This document shows, one piece after another, positions 2,193 through 50,505 of a stretch of 64,000 nucleotides of DNA. A program made the translations under genes and the position numbers. Position 1 is the stretch's first letter; every line of letters starts with the position of its first letter. The stretch comes from Balneolales bacterium ANBcel1. Lineage in GTDB: Bacteria; Bacteroidota; Rhodothermia; Balneolales; Natronogracilivirgulaceae. The stretch is from positions 372,001-436,000 of the forward strand of contig JARULB010000002.1 in the NCBI GenBank assembly GCA_029688905.1. The letters run 5' to 3'. Below the pieces are notes generated by a model. It had not been told where the DNA came from and made no database searches. It was given only the letters and a program-made list of their open reading frames with translations.

Positions 2193-4283
2193 TCAGTTGA
2201 GCGAAAGGGTTATGGTTAGGTGATAGTGCCTGGGCGCGGAAGGATAAGACTGGATGACCTCGTATGCGGCGTCGGTCAGGTTGCGAATGCCGGCGCTGAC
2301 CTCCCCGCTCCACACGGCAGCCGGCCATCGCATGCCCAGATCCAGATCCATGGCTGTAAATGCCTCCAGAGGATCCCGGATCGCTGAATGGTCAAATGTG
2401 GTGTAACGCGCTCCCGTGTACCGGCCCGACCATTGCACCCAGACCCGGTCTCGCCACGCTGCCCGAATTCCCGCTTTGTGCTGCCACTCCGGTACATAGA
2501 TCATCTGCTTTCCCACGCTGCCGTCTCCGGGAAATCGCTCCTGCTGAATCGCTATGCGGGTGCGTGTTACCATGTAGTGCGCATTCAAACGGAACGGGTG
2601 GATGGCTGCTTCACCACGAATCTCCCCCTCCAGGCCGGTTGAGCGGATCTTTTCGATGTTATCAGGGGTAAAGCGTCCGCCATCTCCGGGCCGCCAGCGA
2701 ATTCCGTTGTCAAAGTCATGACGAAAAACGGTGATTCCGGCTGAAATGCTTTCCATAGTAACAGCCCCGGAGGTGATATTTCCGGAAGCGGTGCTGCCGC
2801 CCGACACTTTCGGGTTGTTCCGTTTATTGTAATACGACAGGCCCGCCTCGAGGGACCGGACCGTTTCGGGTTCCAGATCGGGGTTTCCTCCCGGAATCCA
2901 GAACAGGTCGTTGTAAGAAGGGGTGTTTCGGTTCCGGCCGGCCAGGGCGCGCAACGTCAGCGTTTCATCCAGAGGTTGAAACGTAATACCCAATGCCGGA
3001 TTGAGCGCCGTTCCGAAGGTAGTGTGATGTTCGGCCTCCAGAAAAGGATTCAGTCGAAATCCGGGGAGAGCTTCCCAGTCATGGCGGATGCGCAGCGATA
3101 CCTCCGACTTCCGCTGCCTGCCGGCATAGTTGTCACTTTCAACCTGCTGATGAGCCAATTGAGCGGCAGCCATCGATTCGTGTGCGGCATTCCAGACATA
3201 CCGCAAGGACGGCTGTGCCATAAAAAGCCGGGTGGTGCTGTACTCGGTGCGACCGGTTCGCGCATCAGTGTAATCGAGGACGTACCGGTAAAACCCTCCG
3301 GTGAGATTAAGCTGAATTCGCTCAAACCCCGCATAACCGGCCTGCGTAAGCCATCGGATGGTGCGATCGTCCTGACGCGCCGGTGCGGGCGAGCTTGCCG
3401 GGCCGGGGAGGTCATTGGTGATGTCGTCCAACCAGATCAGTGACCGGAACCGCCAGTCGTTGTGTGCATACCCGGCCTGCGCCGTCAGCCAGGAGCCTTC
3501 CACCGCATTGTTGACCCGTGTTCGTTCGACCCCTCGAACCGGGTCGAAATAGCTGAAATCATAGTCCGCTTTTCGGTGATAGGCTCTGACCGAGCCCTGG
3601 AATGCTCCATGACGGACGAAGGCCCCGGCGCCGGTCTGCCGCAGACCGAAACTGCCGATGCTCCGGCTCACGAACGCGGGATTCTGGGGTTGCGAAGACC
3701 GTAGCGAGATGGCGCCTCCGAGTCCGCCGGACCCTGTCATGGCCGCCGGATTCCCCGAAGAGGCGGAAATCCCGTCCAGCATTCCGGCGGGAATCAGCGA
3801 CATATCAAAAACTCCCAGCATCGGATGGTTCAGTGGCAGCTCCTCCCACAGGATGCGGGTCTGGCCCGGGGAAAAACCACGTTGTGAAACCATGGCCATA
3901 TTTCCGGCGCCATAGTCGCGAATCATGGCAAAAGTGTGATTATCAAGCAGCCAGGCCGCAGACTCCTGACGAAACGCGCGTATTTGTTGCGGGTCAACGG
4001 ACTGGATATAAACCGGCTGATGATGGCCCGGTTTCTCAATACGGGGTGCGAGGATTCGGATTTCATCCAAAAAGAGGGTATCGGCAAGGTCGGTATACCC
4101 TTTCGCCTGCTCATCCCGCCTTTCCAGCGCTACCGCCTCATCCTGCATTTCCGGTACGGCCGGCAGTGCCGATGCCATGGTAATCGGGCCGCTCAGGAGA
4201 TCAGCATATGGCATCCCTGCAATCAGCACCATGGCCAGCCATAACGTTCGGATCACGCCCCATGCATTACGCCGACGAGACAT
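2193..4283 (-). CDS. btuB: TonB-dependent outer-membrane receptor, probable vitamin B12 (BtuB-like) transporter
   Basis: About 696 residues from the chosen ATG at 4283. That start gives a clean signal peptide (MSRRRNAW..., hydrophobic LWLAMVLIAG). The frame is open further upstream to 4535, but that extension runs into the riboswitch aptamer and is not credible. After the signal come a plug domain ('WLLDNHTFAMIRDYGAG', 'GNPAAMTGSGGLGGAISLRS') and a 22-strand-type barrel with the usual 'NTPSYNDLFWIPGGNPDLEPE' near residue 500 and a C-terminal aromatic-rich strand. It would take up a substrate across the outer membrane using TonB/ExbBD energy. Control by a cobalamin riboswitch and the BtuG-like partner downstream make corrinoid the likely ligand. 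There is no SusC-type N-terminal carboxypeptidase-like domain, as expected for BtuB. Confidence 0.85.
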   Translation of the reverse strand: MSRRRNAWGVIRTLWLAMVLIAGMPYADLLSGPITMASALPAVPEMQDEAVALERRDEQAKGYTDLADTLFLDEIRILAPRIEKPGHHQPVYIQSVDPQQIRAFRQESAAWLLDNHTFAMIRDYGAGNMAMVSQRGFSPGQTRILWEELPLNHPMLGVFDMSLIPAGMLDGISASSGNPAAMTGSGGLGGAISLRSSQPQNPAFVSRSIGSFGLRQTGAGAFVRHGAFQGSVRAYHRKADYDFSYFDPVRGVERTRVNNAVEGSWLTAQAGYAHNDWRFRSLIWLDDITNDLPGPASSPAPARQDDRTIRWLTQAGYAGFERIQLNLTGGFYRYVLDYTDARTGRTEYSTTRLFMAQPSLRYVWNAAHESMAAAQLAHQQVESDNYAGRQRKSEVSLRIRHDWEALPGFRLNPFLEAEHHTTFGTALNPALGITFQPLDETLTLRALAGRNRNTPSYNDLFWIPGGNPDLEPETVRSLEAGLSYYNKRNNPKVSGGSTASGNITSGAVTMESISAGITVFRHDFDNGIRWRPGDGGRFTPDNIEKIRSTGLEGEIRGEAAIHPFRLNAHYMVTRTRIAIQQERFPGDGSVGKQMIYVPEWQHKAGIRAAWRDRVWVQWSGRYTGARYTTFDHSAIRDPLEAFTAMDLDLGMRWPAAVWSGEVSAGIRNLTDAAYEVIQSYPSAPRHYHLTITLSLN

Positions 4284-36703: not shown

Positions 36704-37463
36704 ATCGAATCTCCTCATCCAGTTCACGGACCCAGATATTTCGGAAACTGACATAATCGCTGTGATCCTGAAGCCGGATTCCCGCCGGGCCGTGTTCTTC
36801 GTAATAAGGAGCACCGATATAGCGCGTATTTCCAAAAATTTCGACATTGTTCTGAACCAGTACGCCATTCAGCATTACCGTGACCCGTGCCGGCTTTTCA
36901 ACCTCACCGTCTTCATCAAAAACGGGTGATTTGAAAAATATCTGGTAGGTCTGCCACTCACCCGGACGTTTCGCCGGATTAGCCAGCGGGATGTGCTGTT
37001 TGTAAACACTGCCGTTCATGCCGTTCGAATAGGTGGGATTATTCCAGTTATCCAGCACCTGCACTTCGTACCGATCCTGCAGAAATACGCCGCTGTTACC
37101 ACGACCCTGACCTTCACCATCAATCTCCGCCGGTGCGCGAAACTCAAGATGAAGCTGAATATCACGGAACTCCTGCCGCGTTATGATATCACCGGTTCCG
37201 GGCTTTACGGTCATATATCCATCCCCGAGCGTCCACTCCGCATCCGAACCATCCCTCGACATCCACCCGTCAAGAGAGGTACCGTCAAATAGGATGATCG
37301 CATCAGCCGGTGGTTCACCATGTACATCAACAGGTTCCACTACCGGTGGTTGGGGTTCCCATATTTCGGTTTTTTCCGGATCGGTTATTTCATCGGATTG
37401 CTGCCCGCAGACAACAGCAGCCGATAGAAAGGGTATCAGAAACAGCAGCACAGTTTTTTTCAT
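36678..37463 (-). CDS. 3-keto-disaccharide hydrolase-like protein (DUF1080)
   Basis: 261 residues. Signal peptide (KTVLLFLIPFLSAAVVCGQ), then the DUF1080 beta-jelly roll: 'AIILFDGTSLDGWMSRDGSD', 'IITRQEFRDIQLHLEFRAPA', 'RGNSGVFLQDRYEVQVLDNW', 'PGEWQTYQIFFKSPVF', 'GPAGIRLQDHSDYVSFRNIW'. In Bacteroides, DUF1080 proteins (for example the glucosinolate operon) cleave glycosides already oxidised at C3 by a Gfo/Idh/MocA dehydrogenase. Such dehydrogenases lie nearby, which fits a periplasmic 3-keto pathway. Its ATG is directly preceded by a dispersed leader unit. The 3' end overlaps the WbqC gene on the other strand by 26 bp. Confidence 0.9.
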   Translation of the reverse strand: MKKTVLLFLIPFLSAAVVCGQQSDEITDPEKTEIWEPQPPVVEPVDVHGEPPADAIILFDGTSLDGWMSRDGSDAEWTLGDGYMTVKPGTGDIITRQEFRDIQLHLEFRAPAEIDGEGQGRGNSGVFLQDRYEVQVLDNWNNPTYSNGMNGSVYKQHIPLANPAKRPGEWQTYQIFFKSPVFDEDGEVEKPARVTVMLNGVLVQNNVEIFGNTRYIGAPYYEEHGPAGIRLQDHSDYVSFRNIWVRELDEEIRFKDGIWRD

Positions 37464-37637
37464 GTGTTTAGAAATTTTTGATTTCGCTTACGCGTTACAC
37501 TGGGCACTTCGTGATCTTCGATTCGCTTACGCGTTACACTGGGCACTTCGTGATCTTCGATTCTAATGTCAGATAGAATGACATGACCGTTTTAGTGATG
37601 CGCCTTTGTGTCCAGAAGCCAGCCCGGTCATGTTCAT
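37464..37637 (-). repeat. Leader-type repeat unit U1 (subfamily A with two 39-bp tandem copies)
   Basis: On the minus strand it starts ATGAACATGACCG, closes its stem with CGGTCATG, continues TGACATTAGAATC, then two 39-bp repeats (GAAGATCACGAAGTGCCCAG..., plus-strand 37483-37560) and ends CTAAACAC exactly at the ATG of the DUF1080 gene. The rest of the 37464-37786 gap holds only the promoter side of the ApbE gene. Confidence 0.8.
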
Positions 37638-37786
37638 TTATATTGGCAATCCTCACACGACGCATTTATTTTTGATGGAATAATCCGGAGTTTCATCAGT
37701 TCCAGATAGCATTTTCCCAAATTTATTATCGGACACAATTTCGGCGCATTCCCCTTTAGAGTCATGGTTCGAATGCAAAAACATAC

Positions 37787-43022: not shown

Positions 43023-43212
43023 GTGTTAGAAAGTTTCAGATTCAGAATGTCTCATGCAGCATCCATGGATTTAATCACTCGCCTGTGTGACCAAATTTTG
43101 GGCCATGGATGGTTCATGTGTTAGAAAAAATTTGATTAAACGGACACATGCTATTCCATGACCGGTTTTAATCATGCGCCAGTTGGTCCAGGTTCCAGAC
43201 CGGTCATGCTCT
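43023..43212 (-). repeat. Tandem leader-type repeat units U3 (B) and U4 (A)
   Basis: U3 (43023-43117, 95 nt) opens ATGAACCATCCATGG, pairs CATCCATGG with CCATGGATG, and ends CTAACAC at the ThuA ATG. U4 (43118-43212) pairs CATGACCGGT with ACCGGTCATG and also ends CTAACAC, running directly into the ATGAAC of U3. The ThuA gene itself begins ATGAACC, as though it occupied the place of a further unit. Confidence 0.82.
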
Positions 43213-43820
43213 TTTCAAAATTAAAATCTGTGTGATGCAACATTCGAAAAACACCCGGAAGCTTTGGACCTCCTGCCCCAGCTACATTCGATTGGTAATG
43301 GTATTGTGGATAATTACTGCTCCGCTTCCGATTTTTGATCAAACGCCTTTAAATTATTGATTGGCTATCATTAAGTGAAATTTTATTTTCGATCCGAACA
43401 TTTTTTTACAAAATCACATGATTCATTTTTTGCTCGTTCCCGGAAGCTGACCGGCACGTTGAGGATATTTAACGTTTTAGGTTAAGCGGATACAGGGAGA
43501 TGCACGTCTGGTTTTAATCATGCGCCTGTGTCCAGATACCAGTCCGGTTATGTTCATTTCATCTTATCCACTGCTATGCAAGCACAATTCTGGATGATTC
43601 ATTATGTTGGTTTGGCGTTCTGTTTCAGTGTATTGTGTGGCGGAAGATGATTACTGCAGATTGTTGAGCTAATGCGTCTCTTCCTGTATCGAAATAATAC
43701 GTCTGTTTAAAAAATTTAAATTACGTGGACTCGTGCAATTCCATGATCGGTTTCATCCATGCGCCTGTATGCCCTGGCGCCGGCCCGGTCCATGTTCATA
43801 GCAACTAAACTATTGGCATT
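43213..43820. other. Non-coding region with two degenerate leader-type units (U5, U6)
   Basis: About 600 bp with no credible gene. U5 (about 43466-43557) and U6 (about 43704-43799) lie in minus orientation, each opening ATGAACAT, keeping GGCGCATG.ATTAAA or a variant, and ending near AAACA, but their stems carry mismatches. The AT-rich stretch 43300-43460 has no recognisable motif. Promoters for both the ThuA gene (minus) and the gene at 43821 (plus) must lie in this region. Confidence 0.65.
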
Positions 43821-44987: not shown

Positions 44988-45190
44988 TTTTTTTGATTTC
45001 GCTTACGCGTTTTACTGGGCACTTCGTGATCTTCGATTCGCTTACGCGTTTTACTGGGCACTTCGTGATCTTCGATTCGCTTACGCGTTTTACTGGGCAC
45101 TTCGTGATCTTCGATTCTAATGTCCGATAGAATGACATGACCGTTTTTTTCATGCTCCTGTGTGCCTGGCACCGGCCCGGTCATGATCAT
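44988..45190 (-). repeat. Leader-type repeat unit U7 with three 39-bp tandem copies
   Basis: Minus orientation, opening ATGATCATGACCG, stem closed by CGGTCATG, then GGACATTAGAATC, three 39-bp repeats (plus-strand 45002-45118; version with TTTTAC where U1 has TTACAC) and a T-rich end against the stop of the preceding plus-strand gene. It is antisense to both flanking genes, so it cannot be a leader for either. The remaining 45191-45317 contains nothing I can identify beyond the expected promoter of the next gene. Confidence 0.8.
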
Positions 45191-46466: not shown

Positions 46467-46612
46467 TTGTACCTAAAGGTTCGTCAACTTGGAGGATGCC
46501 TGAATATAAGATTCAATCTGCCAGCGGCCTTGTTTTTGCAATAATCTGTGCTGGAGAGAATGCTTGCTGCATTCTTTAAGAGCGTGTACCTATTGAAGGT
46601 TTAACCAGGTCG

Positions 46613-49459
46613 CTATTCTTCTTTGTTCAACATCAAGTTAGCACCACTATAATGAACCCCTGGATAAGCCGAACCCGACCTACCCATGTCCCACTCATCA
46701 TTCTCTATAAGATAGTTAATCTTCTCCGCATCACCCTCCCAAACAGGACGCGCAAACTGACCATTAACCTGCTGTTGAATAAAACTAGCATAACCAGCAC
46801 TAGCCATCCAAACCATAAAATCCTTAGGATTACCACTACGAGCAACACCGTCCTCGTCCTCCTTAGAAACCATACGCTCAGCACAATAATCTGGAGGACT
46901 AGGATTATTAAACGCGGGATGAATAAGATGATCCTTAACGCTACAAATACCAGGATTCGGCTCATGAGTAGTACTGAAAAAATGACGCAACTCATTAGTA
47001 TACCAACTAGGCAAACTACCACTAACAAAGAAATAACTAGCCTCCATAACCCTATGAGCACTAGCATAACCATCCTTAATAACAGAACGAGAACGAGAAT
47101 TCTCAATACCACCCCCTCTAGTCCTACCAACATACATAACATTATCCGCAATAGTCATATAAGCCCCAAAACCACCAAAATCATTAACATAACCTAAATC
47201 CGTGAGGTTTTCCGCATAATCTTCCACAAATTTAATACTATAAGGATTAATATCCAAACTATCCTCCAAAACACCCCCTATATCCTCCTTAAAAATCTCC
47301 CAATTAGCCAACTCCTCCTCACTCCAAACACTGCCTGGAAGATACAAACCACCATCCGGATGATCCTCCCTAGGAACATCATTACCAGCAGCCCCTGCTA
47401 CGCTCCAACCCCTACCATAAGCAGAATTACCCAAATTAAAAACAACCACCTGCTCCACAGAAGCATCAGGCAAAACCACAGCAGAATACCTAACAGAACC
47501 CAGCTCCCTAGGATCCGCAAGAATAGGCCTACTAATACGACTCCACTCATCAATAAAATAACCATGCGTATCCACATCAAAAACATTCTCAACAGTCTCC
47601 AAATGACTATTGAAATCACCAACATGCCTGAACAAAACAGGAACATTACTAGAATTAACACGCTCATGCACCAACTCACCAGGACCATAACCACTAACCA
47701 AGTACGTTATAGGCGTTCCATTTCTTTCAGCGCCGTGCCAGTACATAGCAGGAGCAGGATGGTTATCATATTCTACTAATAAACGATTAACCTCGCTCAT
47801 ACCAGGAATACCATCACCATCCTTACTGGCCTCCTCACCACCACCAAGCATAAAAACATAATTACCCCTTGGAATAGAAGCCCTAATAACACCCCCCTCA
47901 TCAGCCACCAACAAAGTATCCTTGCCACTCTCCAAATGTCTTGCTTCGATACTCGCGTAAGGATTGGGTTCTTTACCAAAGAATCCTCTGGCTTGAACCC
48001 TAAAATCGTGCCTATCGCGGACATTAACAAAGTCTTCTAAAACCTTTTTAGTACCGTGAGCATCAAAAACCTTAACAGTATAAGGAAGACTGCCAGTACC
48101 CTCAAAAACATGACTCACATCTTTACTAACATCATTGCCACTAACATCCCAACCATAAACACTACCGTCTACCTCTAAAGCAAGACTATCCAACTCATTA
48201 GGACTACTCGCACTAATATTAAAGTCTCCGCTGAACCAATCAACAACAGCAGGCGCTGAAACACTTACCCGGGGAGCCGTCCTCACAAGAACGATATCAC
48301 CAAGCTCCAGGCGCTCCTTTAACACGTGCTCTGTGGCGGCCGGCTCAAATCCATCGGCCGAGAACGCGTAGACTACCGGCTCTCCCTTCAGGCGCATGGC
48401 CACGTCTCTGGAAAACTCAAAGCTCCCCTGAACCGGCTTGTCAAACGCCACATCTGCATACGAAATCACAACGCGGCCATGAATATCCCCGCCATCAACA
48501 TCCACCAAATGTCCTTTACTCACCATCTCAAAATACTCATCGCCCAGAGCCACATCGCCCAAATCCACAACATCCTTTAAGCGGCGCCTCTCCAAAGCGT
48601 CGGTAAACCCATCGGCCGAAAACGCGTAGGTCACCGGATCCCCCTTCAGGCGCATGGCCACGTCTCTGGAAAACTCAAAGCTCCCCTGAACCTGTCTGTC
48701 ATACCCGGCTTCCGCATACGAGGTCACCACTCGGCCTTGTACATCGGCTCCGGCGGCATCGAGCAGGCGGCCGCGGGTGGTCGCTTCAAACAGCTGGTCC
48801 TTCAGGGTAATGGATTCATTAACATTTCTGCCGAACCGGACAGGCTTAATCACGCCTTTGTAGTTTTCGCTTTCATCCACAACCAGCGACAGGCTGCTCG
48901 GGCCACCGCTGCCTCCCTGGCTGGCTACCGTAATGGCAAAACCGCTTGCTGCCGACAGGCTGGTTAATTTGACCGTCTCGTTGATTCCTTCTCCGCGAAC
49001 GTTAACCAGGTAGACCCCGGATCCCGGGAATGGGCCCACGGTGACCCTGTTGTTCCCCTCGCCAAATTCAACATCGCCACCGAATACCTCCCGGCCCAGA
49101 ACGTCATAAACGCCCACTCTCTTGTTGCCCCCGCCGCTGGTTACTACGATATGCGCCACATCCAGCGTAGGATTGGGGTACGGACGGGCCAGGCCAACAT
49201 CGGAATCGTATTCCAAAACAAACATGCCATCCGGTCCGCTCTGAGCTGTTGCCAGCGTATCGTTCAAAACCTGATCCACCAAATGCACCCCCGCGCCCGC
49301 GACACCTTGTCCGCCAACATTGCTCACACTGCCGGTAACCGCGCTTCGGGTGCCGCTGTGCTGTCCGTACGCATCGCCGGCCGCCAGGCAGAGTGCACCA
49401 AGTAAAACGGCCGTCAGGATCCCCCCGTATGTCGTAACTGCCCGGTGGACTTCGTTCAT
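46613..49459 (-). CDS. Large secreted protein of unknown function, internal sorting-like domain and split codon use
   Basis: 948 residues from ATG 49459 (an in-frame start at 49522 would put 21 polar residues before the signal). Signal peptide 'TYGGILTAVLLGALCLAAGD'. Next comes a carboxypeptidase-like start ('SAVTGSVSNVGGQGVAG') and, at about residues 85-175, a T9SS type-A-like unit ('RPYPNPTLDVAHIVV', 'VGVYDVLGREVFGG', 'SGVYLVNVRG') that is internal instead of C-terminal. Two near-identical blocks of 85 or so residues share 'GSFEFSRDVAMRLKG' and 'YAFSADGF'. From about residue 390 the protein has Ig-like then unassigned sequence ('HRVMEASYFFVSGSLPSWYT'). In that part most third positions are T or G (GGT, GTT, GCT, AGT, AAG), coding-strand C is rare, and GC drops; the N-terminal third has ordinary codon use. 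No enzyme motif is certain. The C-terminal part may be a recent acquisition. Confidence 0.7.
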   Translation of the reverse strand: MNEVHRAVTTYGGILTAVLLGALCLAAGDAYGQHSGTRSAVTGSVSNVGGQGVAGAGVHLVDQVLNDTLATAQSGPDGMFVLEYDSDVGLARPYPNPTLDVAHIVVTSGGGNKRVGVYDVLGREVFGGDVEFGEGNNRVTVGPFPGSGVYLVNVRGEGINETVKLTSLSAASGFAITVASQGGSGGPSSLSLVVDESENYKGVIKPVRFGRNVNESITLKDQLFEATTRGRLLDAAGADVQGRVVTSYAEAGYDRQVQGSFEFSRDVAMRLKGDPVTYAFSADGFTDALERRRLKDVVDLGDVALGDEYFEMVSKGHLVDVDGGDIHGRVVISYADVAFDKPVQGSFEFSRDVAMRLKGEPVVYAFSADGFEPAATEHVLKERLELGDIVLVRTAPRVSVSAPAVVDWFSGDFNISASSPNELDSLALEVDGSVYGWDVSGNDVSKDVSHVFEGTGSLPYTVKVFDAHGTKKVLEDFVNVRDRHDFRVQARGFFGKEPNPYASIEARHLESGKDTLLVADEGGVIRASIPRGNYVFMLGGGEEASKDGDGIPGMSEVNRLLVEYDNHPAPAMYWHGAERNGTPITYLVSGYGPGELVHERVNSSNVPVLFRHVGDFNSHLETVENVFDVDTHGYFIDEWSRISRPILADPRELGSVRYSAVVLPDASVEQVVVFNLGNSAYGRGWSVAGAAGNDVPREDHPDGGLYLPGSVWSEEELANWEIFKEDIGGVLEDSLDINPYSIKFVEDYAENLTDLGYVNDFGGFGAYMTIADNVMYVGRTRGGGIENSRSRSVIKDGYASAHRVMEASYFFVSGSLPSWYTNELRHFFSTTHEPNPGICSVKDHLIHPAFNNPSPPDYCAERMVSKEDEDGVARSGNPKDFMVWMASAGYASFIQQQVNGQFARPVWEGDAEKINYLIENDEWDMGRSGSAYPGVHYSGANLMLNKEE
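48385..48692 (-). repeat. Internal direct repeat in the large secreted protein gene
   Basis: A 50-nt block beginning CCCTTCAGGCGCATGGCC on the plus strand occurs identically at 48385-48434 and 48643-48692, 258 nt apart (86 codons), with flanking similarity. It encodes the duplicated 'SFEFSRDVAMRLKG' region, so one domain was duplicated recently or kept alike by gene conversion. Confidence 0.85.
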
Positions 49460-49609
49460 AACACTTTGGTTTGATAATAGTTGACTTTGGGCAGGATAGG
49501 GCTTTCCCGAATTTGTTGCCATTGTCTTTTTGGGCGGGGGCGGCAGGGGGGCCGGGATCTGTGCGTTCGGGTAGCGATCCCATCCAAAATGATCCTCATT
49601 TTGCGGCCG

Positions 49610-49670
49610 GCCGGAGCAGGGGCGCCGGTATCCGGGGTCATTGCCTGTGATGATGCCGATGGGCTGGCAG
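49610..49670. repeat. Dispersed intergenic repeat, family C, copy 3
   Basis: GCGCCGGTATC..GGGGTCA followed by the exact 19-mer CCTGTGATGATGCCGATGG (49644-49662) shared with 33687-33705, ending near a run of eight T. It lies upstream of the large secreted protein gene. Apart from this and the units below, 49460-50017 holds no gene. Confidence 0.6.
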
Positions 49671-49742
49671 TTTTTTTTCTTTGACCCCGTTTTGTGCTAT
49701 TTTTATGCAATTCTACCATGTACTTGTAATCAGACCTGTAAA

Positions 49743-50017
49743 ATGAACATGACCGGACTGGCGTCAGGGTACACGGGCGCATGATTAAAAAAACCGGTCA
49801 TGGAATTCTATCTGACATTATTAGAATCAAAGATCACGAAGTGCCCAGTGAAACGCGTAAGCGAATCGAAGATCACGAAGTGCCCAGTGAAACGCGTAAG
49901 CGAAATCTAAAAGTTTTAAACACATGAACCATCCGTGGCCGATTATTTGGCAATCAGGGCTATAATTAAGACCATGGATGCTGCATGTGACATTAGGAAT
50001 CAAAAAAAAATAAACAC
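49743..50017 (+). repeat. Tandem leader-type repeat units U8 (A, two 39-bp copies) and U9 (B)
   Basis: U8 (49743-49923) opens ATGAACATGACCGG, pairs with CCGGTCATG, then TGACATTATTAGAATC, two 39-bp repeats and a TTTTAAACAC end. U9 (49924-50017) opens ATGAACCATCCGTGG, pairs with CCATGGATG, then GTGACATTAGGAATC and AAACAC, ending exactly at the ATG of the gene at 50018. This A-then-B-then-gene order is the same as in front of the ThuA gene on the other strand. Confidence 0.85.
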
Positions 50018-50389
50018 ATGAAACTCAACATTATCAGCGGCAGCAAGCAGTCCAAGCCGGCTCTTGCCAAGATCTACAAAAACGGAACCCTGGCGCTAAA
50101 CATCGTTACCCGCCAGAAGCTTTCCATCACCCAGGCCAATAATTATCATCTGGCATTGGCAACCGACCAGACCCACAAGCTTGACGAAAAGCTTTATCTG
50201 GTATTTATGGATAAACCAGGCGATGCCACCCGCAAGCTATTGGTCACAGAGAAAAACGCCACCGTCAATTTTGCTCATGTCTTTGATGCTCAGAACATAG
50301 ATTATGAGAAGACAGCCCATGTCTATGAGCTGGAAAAGCAGATCACCTGGCAGGGCAACCTCGTAGCTGTTTTCCAGCGCACCAGGTAA
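50018..50389 (+). CDS. Hypothetical protein, 123 residues
   Basis: No family recognised. A soluble alpha/beta-looking protein without signal peptide: 'KLNIISGSKQSKPALAKIYK', 'NGTLALNIVTRQKLSITQAN', 'YLVFMDKPGDATRKLLVTEK' and an aromatic-poor C terminus ending QRTR. The start is well supported because leader units U8 and U9 run directly into its ATG. The stop codon lies inside a short sequence repeated at 46424-46466. Codon use is ordinary. It could be cargo of a mobile leader/repeat unit or simply an orphan cytosolic gene. Confidence 0.6.
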   Translation: MKLNIISGSKQSKPALAKIYKNGTLALNIVTRQKLSITQANNYHLALATDQTHKLDEKLYLVFMDKPGDATRKLLVTEKNATVNFAHVFDAQNIDYEKTAHVYELEKQITWQGNLVAVFQRTR

Positions 50390-50419
50390 CCGGCGCCGTA
50401 CCGATGGGAATCGCTCCCC

Positions 50420-50505
50420 GCGGAATTCCGATGCCTGCCAGAAGAAAGGCGGATTTTCACTGGTGATAAATCGGTGCAAGGGACGGAAGGTTGTGGGTAT
50501 ATTAT
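50420..50505. repeat. Dispersed intergenic repeat, family C, copy 4
   Basis: GCGGATTTTCACTGGTGAT..AATCGGTGCAAGG..GGTTGTGGGT resembles 33730-33785. Together with the first part at 50380-50418 this is the longest version of family C. Confidence 0.5.

Follow-up and report, generated by a model that had tools for sequence, protein, structure and literature searches.

The window, a 64,000-nt stretch of contig JARULB010000002.1 (positions 372,001 to 436,000) from Balneolales bacterium ANBcel1, carries on its reverse strand a large gene that changes its codon usage abruptly partway through. The ORF has 969 codons from its first ATG; the 948 codons given in a preliminary description of this DNA correspond to a count from the second ATG. 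The features at the locus are as follows:

46613 to 49522, minus strand: mosaic gene of 969 aa, or 948 aa from the second ATG at 49459 (ORF list, codon table)
48305 to 49522, minus strand: front module with a signal peptide, a CarboxypepD_reg-like domain, an internal Por_Secre_tail domain and repeats (Pfam, NCBIfam)
48347 to 48745, minus strand: unit of ~141 nt within the front module, in two copies that are 84% identical
48223 to 48313, minus strand: interval of the codon-switch junction; the related gene of ANBcel3 switches at the identical motif (LELGDI)
46616 to 48304, minus strand: block of T/G-ending codons, the exchanged module (change point, KL, homologues, AF2, Foldseek)
46612 to 50497, no strand assigned: duplicated unit shared with contig C5 (paralogue comparison)
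50018 to 50389, plus strand: small divergent gene of 123 aa
46421 to 46463, plus strand: 43-bp direct repeat, copy 1, matching the 3' end of the small gene
50373 to 50415, plus strand: second copy of the 43-bp direct repeat, which overlaps the small gene at its end

The front of the gene is host-like in its third positions (C 0.30, G 0.31, T 0.23 and A 0.15 in codons 0-413; host genome mean A.16, C.34, G.29 and T.22), and codons 414-968 have T3 0.61, G3 0.24, A3 0.08 and C3 0.07. Our likelihood analysis of third-position composition placed the change point at codon 406, or 48,304 (48,223-48,313 within 2 lnL), with a 2ΔlnL of 175 vs at most 21 in 200 codon shuffles, which indicates a sharp junction between two composition regimes. 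This confirms the abrupt change inside one ORF that had been described before, near 48,280. The earlier counts of C also hold when repeated by hand (8/60 in 47041-47100 and 17/60 in 48901-48960), our codon counts reproduce the preference for T- and G-ending codons, and the “two thirds” of the gene assigned to this usage is close to the about 58% that the block occupies. The bias follows a codon rule and is not a loss of C alone: T is used where possible and G is preferred over A in purine-ending pairs, with TTR chosen for Leu, AGR for Arg and AGT for Ser. Since the effective number of codons is 33.5 in the block (28-29 in sub-blocks) vs a host mean of 49.2, the phrase “near one codon per residue” was a fair one; the GC3 of the block alone would predict 53. 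The bias is interrupted by host-like patches at codons about 500-532, 582-607 and 763-775, and it fades across the last 9 codons. Antisense ORFs in the block read as a by-product of avoiding A-ending codons.

The block is also exceptional in its genome. Its codon deviation (KL 0.90) is equalled by 0/554 background ORFs, drawn from ~0.86 Mb of the ANBcel1 genome, and in this 0.86 Mb the T/G-ending pattern occurs only in the window gene and its paralogue; the codon-run pattern was scanned over the whole genome. The nearest background outliers form an AT-rich, glycosyltransferase-like cluster. No further codon outliers of similar size were seen in the sampled part of the genome apart from a strongly AT-rich run of surface-polysaccharide-like genes at L039:12973-19114. 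A milder internal shift is seen in a large secreted protein at L038:13360-17040, where the first ~300 codons are A/T-ending and the last ~500 are C-ending.

The front half of the window gene is a native export module. Relatives of its first ~400 residues open several other proteins of ~1,100 aa in the ANBcel1 genome and in the GTDB family, and these proteins keep ordinary codon use from end to end. Since the front module is thus common to large proteins with ordinary codons, the window gene can be understood as joining a native front to a back that was exchanged. The Por_Secre_tail/TIGR04183 domain (E 2.5e-9 for TIGR04183 and 2e-6 for Pfam) lies at residues 115-186 of 969, internally and near the N-terminus. 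Between the two ~141-nt copies (about 48442-48562) the front is mildly T-rich and resembles the paralogue.

For the back block, we found an Ig/PKD-like domain and a prealbumin-like domain; its C-terminal domain is uncharacterised, and nothing recognisable is related to the last ~300 residues. Modelled as a whole by AF2 (pLDDT 65), the block matches Ig-like adhesins and pilins in Foldseek; the model of the C-terminal domain alone is poor (pLDDT 49), and a PDB sequence search gave weak PKD matches only. From the model of the block, the gene product is predicted to act as a surface adhesin. A degenerate metalloprotease helix (NExxH-like) suggested by the alignment was dropped, as its residues are not conserved.

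Two further genes carry the same kind of block. ANBcel1 has one paralogue, on contig C5 (L005:7256-10471), which is 66% identical in the block and T/G-ending from about codon 100 onward. The second is in Balneolaceae bacterium ANBcel3, a member of the same GTDB family and another genus that was assembled independently; its block is 98.3% identical in nucleotides to that of the paralogue over 1,671 nt. There the block follows a different front, which is C-rich, and the junction falls at the motif where the window gene also switches. The codon use of ANBcel3 is itself unlike the block (T3 0.31, C3 0.19), and the sampled ORFs of neither ANBcel1 nor ANBcel3 show such T/G-ending usage. Comparison with homologues in the same genome, proposed at the outset as a check on whether the pattern is normal for this organism, therefore gives a divided answer: ANBcel1 does hold a paralogue with the same pattern, yet such usage is not the norm in its genome. 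Differences between the paralogue and ANBcel3 blocks are strongly clustered, as expected of short recombination tracts. Taken together, the codon switch partway through the window gene follows from the block being a swappable module common to other bacteria.

Traces of replacement and duplication surround the ANBcel1 copies. Behind the stop codon of the paralogue, at an offset of 15 nt, comes a 74-nt stretch that matches the window gene's 3' end at 90.5% identity, the stop codon being part of the match; this is the signature of an old gene end that would have been displaced by the insertion of a new 3' module bringing a stop codon of its own. Homology of the duplicated unit ends at the stop codon on the gene side and near 50497 on the side of the small gene. 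The 43-bp sequence occurs at three sites in the genome, the third being the corresponding position of the C5 unit. The 123-aa gene matches no Pfam, NCBIfam or PHROG family, and within the class it is found only beside the surface gene family (at both ANBcel1 loci and in G124); it may be an obligate partner of that family.

The module family is sporadic, being found by profile searches in 8/245 genomes of the class; a ninth genome (G211), not counted among these eight, gave only a weak match, to a PKD-like stretch. Further members in other families of the order are 21-32% identical, and the distant ones start as lipoproteins with PKD-like domains. No full-length member was found beyond the order among 396 genomes of the phylum, and no relative was found in phages, plasmids or IMG/VR, for the last of which the profile of the whole family is too divergent. 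In G112, two near-identical transposase genes in direct repeat (L095 7121-8140 and 13812-14831) flank a family copy, and the region L095:7121-14831 is composite-transposon-like. Several copies, those of G076, G065 and G124, appear broken or incomplete.

What the preliminary description did not foresee is that codon dialects independent of the host run through the whole family. In seven genomes, the family modules exceed all sampled background ORFs in codon deviation (0 of 554, 39, 63, 59, 37, 45 and 21 ORFs are more deviant; the background outside ANBcel1 is small, at 21 to 63 ORFs per genome), with the single exception of the C-rich 5' block of G112a, which is exceeded by 4/63. The dialect is T-ending in G124 and in a fragment of G076, T/A-ending in G122, and A-ending in G112b and G119, whereas G076 and the back of G112a are mixed; both G112a and G076 switch internally. 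G119 and G112b are 85% identical in amino acids and share the A-ending dialect, with many synonymous differences between them and with hosts of different composition. The dialect thus follows the lineage of the module, not the host. Between the two ANBcel1 paralogues, synonymous sites outside long conserved runs agree nearly at the level expected by chance given composition (0.53 vs 0.46, 0.48 vs 0.39 and 0.78 vs 0.73), and both genes keep a T3 of about 0.60, which together indicate that the regime was maintained over a long divergence. Since the split of the paralogue and ANBcel3, 6 of the polarisable synonymous changes run away from T and 1 toward it (n=7); the regime therefore seems inactive in ANBcel1 and ANBcel3 now, although the number is small.

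Based on these findings, we consider it probable that the window gene is a mosaic surface-protein gene whose T/G dialect arose elsewhere than in the hosts that carry it today. The front is the native N-terminal export module in host codons, and the back would be an adhesin-like C-terminal module from a gene family that occurs sporadically and is exchanged between genomes. This module would have entered by recombination, on the 5' side within conserved front-module sequence and on the 3' side at or just past the stop codon, so that the codon switch would mark its 5' junction. The dialect itself would have taken shape and persisted over a long divergence outside these hosts, its most likely home being a donor lineage or mobile pool that lies beyond the present sampling, and would now be eroding. 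Several results lead us to this proposal: the change point is abrupt and lies at the module border; the front module recurs in proteins with ordinary codons; the nearly identical block sits behind a different, C-rich front in another genus; and the displaced tail follows the stop of the paralogue. The rarity of the family, the insertion sequences flanking one G112 copy and the duplicated unit with its rare 43-bp repeats agree with it, as do the near-chance synonymous agreement with T3 kept at ~0.60, the 6:1 direction of recent changes, and the A-ending dialect of G119 and G112b in hosts of different background. The junction, the foreign composition of the block, its exchange between genera, the displaced tail and the native front module are observations; the direction of transfer, the outside reservoir and the adhesin role we infer from our results. 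Of the origins offered in the preliminary description, an acquired domain is the one that is supported, given the module junction, the block with a different front in ANBcel3 and the displaced tail in the paralogue; deamination and selection on mRNA structure are not supported, as discussed below.

Some results fit this proposal less well. We found no donor: none of the 396 phylum genomes uses T/G-ending codons genome-wide, as judged from runs of such codons, the sampled genomes with the highest counts being ordinary, and matches to NNK runs in other genomes mostly look like the antisense of Lys/Ala/Glu-rich genes. The restriction of full-length members to the order and their absence from plasmids, phages and IMG/VR also count against it. 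A single donor would leave the different dialects of other members unexplained, a skew that ends at the stop codon is unlike the import of a longer donor segment, and the 6:1 count is small.

A rival explanation is a process linked to the family itself, either targeted mutagenesis or codon selection, which would impose and maintain a lineage-specific, one-base-ending dialect whatever the host. In its favour, the modules exceed the sampled background in seven genomes, the C-rich 5' block of G112a excepted, the T/G and A dialects survive near-saturated synonymous divergence, and the bias does not continue past the stop codon in the window gene, ANBcel3 or G124, nor past the displaced tail in the paralogue. 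However, the directions differ among members, with internal switches in G112a and G076, the recent changes in the paralogue and ANBcel3 run away from T, no shared mutator, reverse transcriptase or deaminase was seen among the neighbours examined beside the copies, and several copies look broken or fragmentary. We regard such a process as unlikely. A wider idea, which we put forward only tentatively, is that the family carries, or lives in, a source of extreme lineage-specific dialects (T/G, T, A or C) that are confined to coding sequence, proof against saturation and independent of the host; as part of the same tentative idea, this source could be an unrecognised mobile reservoir that has mutational regimes of its own, or else a recoding process targeted at these genes.

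Strand-specific deamination of cytosine (and adenine) on the coding strand, for example via transcription or R-loops, would account for third positions poor in C and A and for the skews of the block (GC skew 0.41, AT skew -0.23). However, fourfold T:G in the block is about 5:1, and simple C>T and A>G changes from host usage would give about 1.2:1; together with the AGR/TTR preference, this exceeds what transitions could produce. The C-to-T deamination first suggested also does not fit the depletion of A, the loss of C without any deaminase neighbour context, or the extent of the skew: it is absent from the flanking non-coding DNA, ending with the stop codon in the window gene, ANBcel3 and G124, loci whose downstream DNA is unrelated, and with the displaced tail in the paralogue. 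A-ending relatives exist, and the comparison with homologues that had been proposed for finding synonymous C-to-T changes instead gave recent changes running 6:1 away from T. Deamination is therefore very unlikely. Selection of the block codons for a particular mRNA structure is likewise very unlikely: the block does fold more weakly than host-recoded versions (-28.6 vs -34.9 kcal/mol per 120 nt), but shuffling synonymous codons within it gives -27.2 kcal/mol per 120 nt, so there is no folding signal beyond composition and this earlier suggestion is not supported. An assembly chimera, as raised earlier, or contamination, either of which an abrupt shift within a single ORF might bring to mind, is extremely unlikely, since the same block lies in the paralogue on a second contig and in the independently assembled ANBcel3, with its junction at the same motif.

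This arrangement recalls several known systems. As in mosaic genes formed by intragenic horizontal transfer and codon amelioration, there is an abrupt internal junction, the module occurs across genera with a different front, and recent changes run mostly away from the foreign codons; the window gene differs in that no donor was found, that its composition is more extreme than that of any sampled genome, and that departures from host usage, in several directions, run through the entire family. In the paralogue, the new 3' module precedes a remnant of the old end, as in the C-terminal tip replacement of polymorphic toxins (Rhs, CDI), but the exchanged part here is adhesin-like and no repeat-encapsulation core was found. 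No toxin domain was matched in Pfam, NCBIfam or PADLOC, and no immunity gene was found; the C-terminal domain is uncharacterised, and the small neighbour is upstream and divergent. The signal peptide and the Por_Secre_tail/TIGR04183 homology are those of T9SS type A cargo, except that the sorting-like domain is near the N-terminus, not at the extreme C-terminus. Diversity-generating retroelements likewise act on genes with a diversified 3' part; the bias here spans 1.6 kb and is synonymous, unlike adenine-specific variation in short repeats, and no reverse transcriptase was found among the ten window neighbours scanned or among the neighbour ORFs read by eye elsewhere. We found no matching precedent in the literature. 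Anomalous codon usage is commonly taken as the mark of a single transfer from a single donor, but here one gene family deviates from every host that carries it, each lineage in a direction of its own, and the dialect persists although the synonymous sites have been reshuffled. This would mean either that bacterial surface genes are supplied from a concealed DNA pool with extreme codon regimes, or that synonymous sites are shaped by a process linked to the gene; the family offers natural genes for testing the effects of codon choice.

Of additional note, an intergenic family of ~40-nt direct repeats (agatcacgaagtgcccagtgaaacgcgtaagcgaa) occurs in both orientations, with several copies in the window, at 37459-37639, 43039-43559, 44990-45190 and 49824-49904, with traces elsewhere in the ANBcel1 genome. 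The ANBcel3 gene is flanked on both sides by many copies of another ~40-nt repeat, GTCATTGCGGGCTTGACCCGCAATCTCC (L004:1-110 and 2870-3917).
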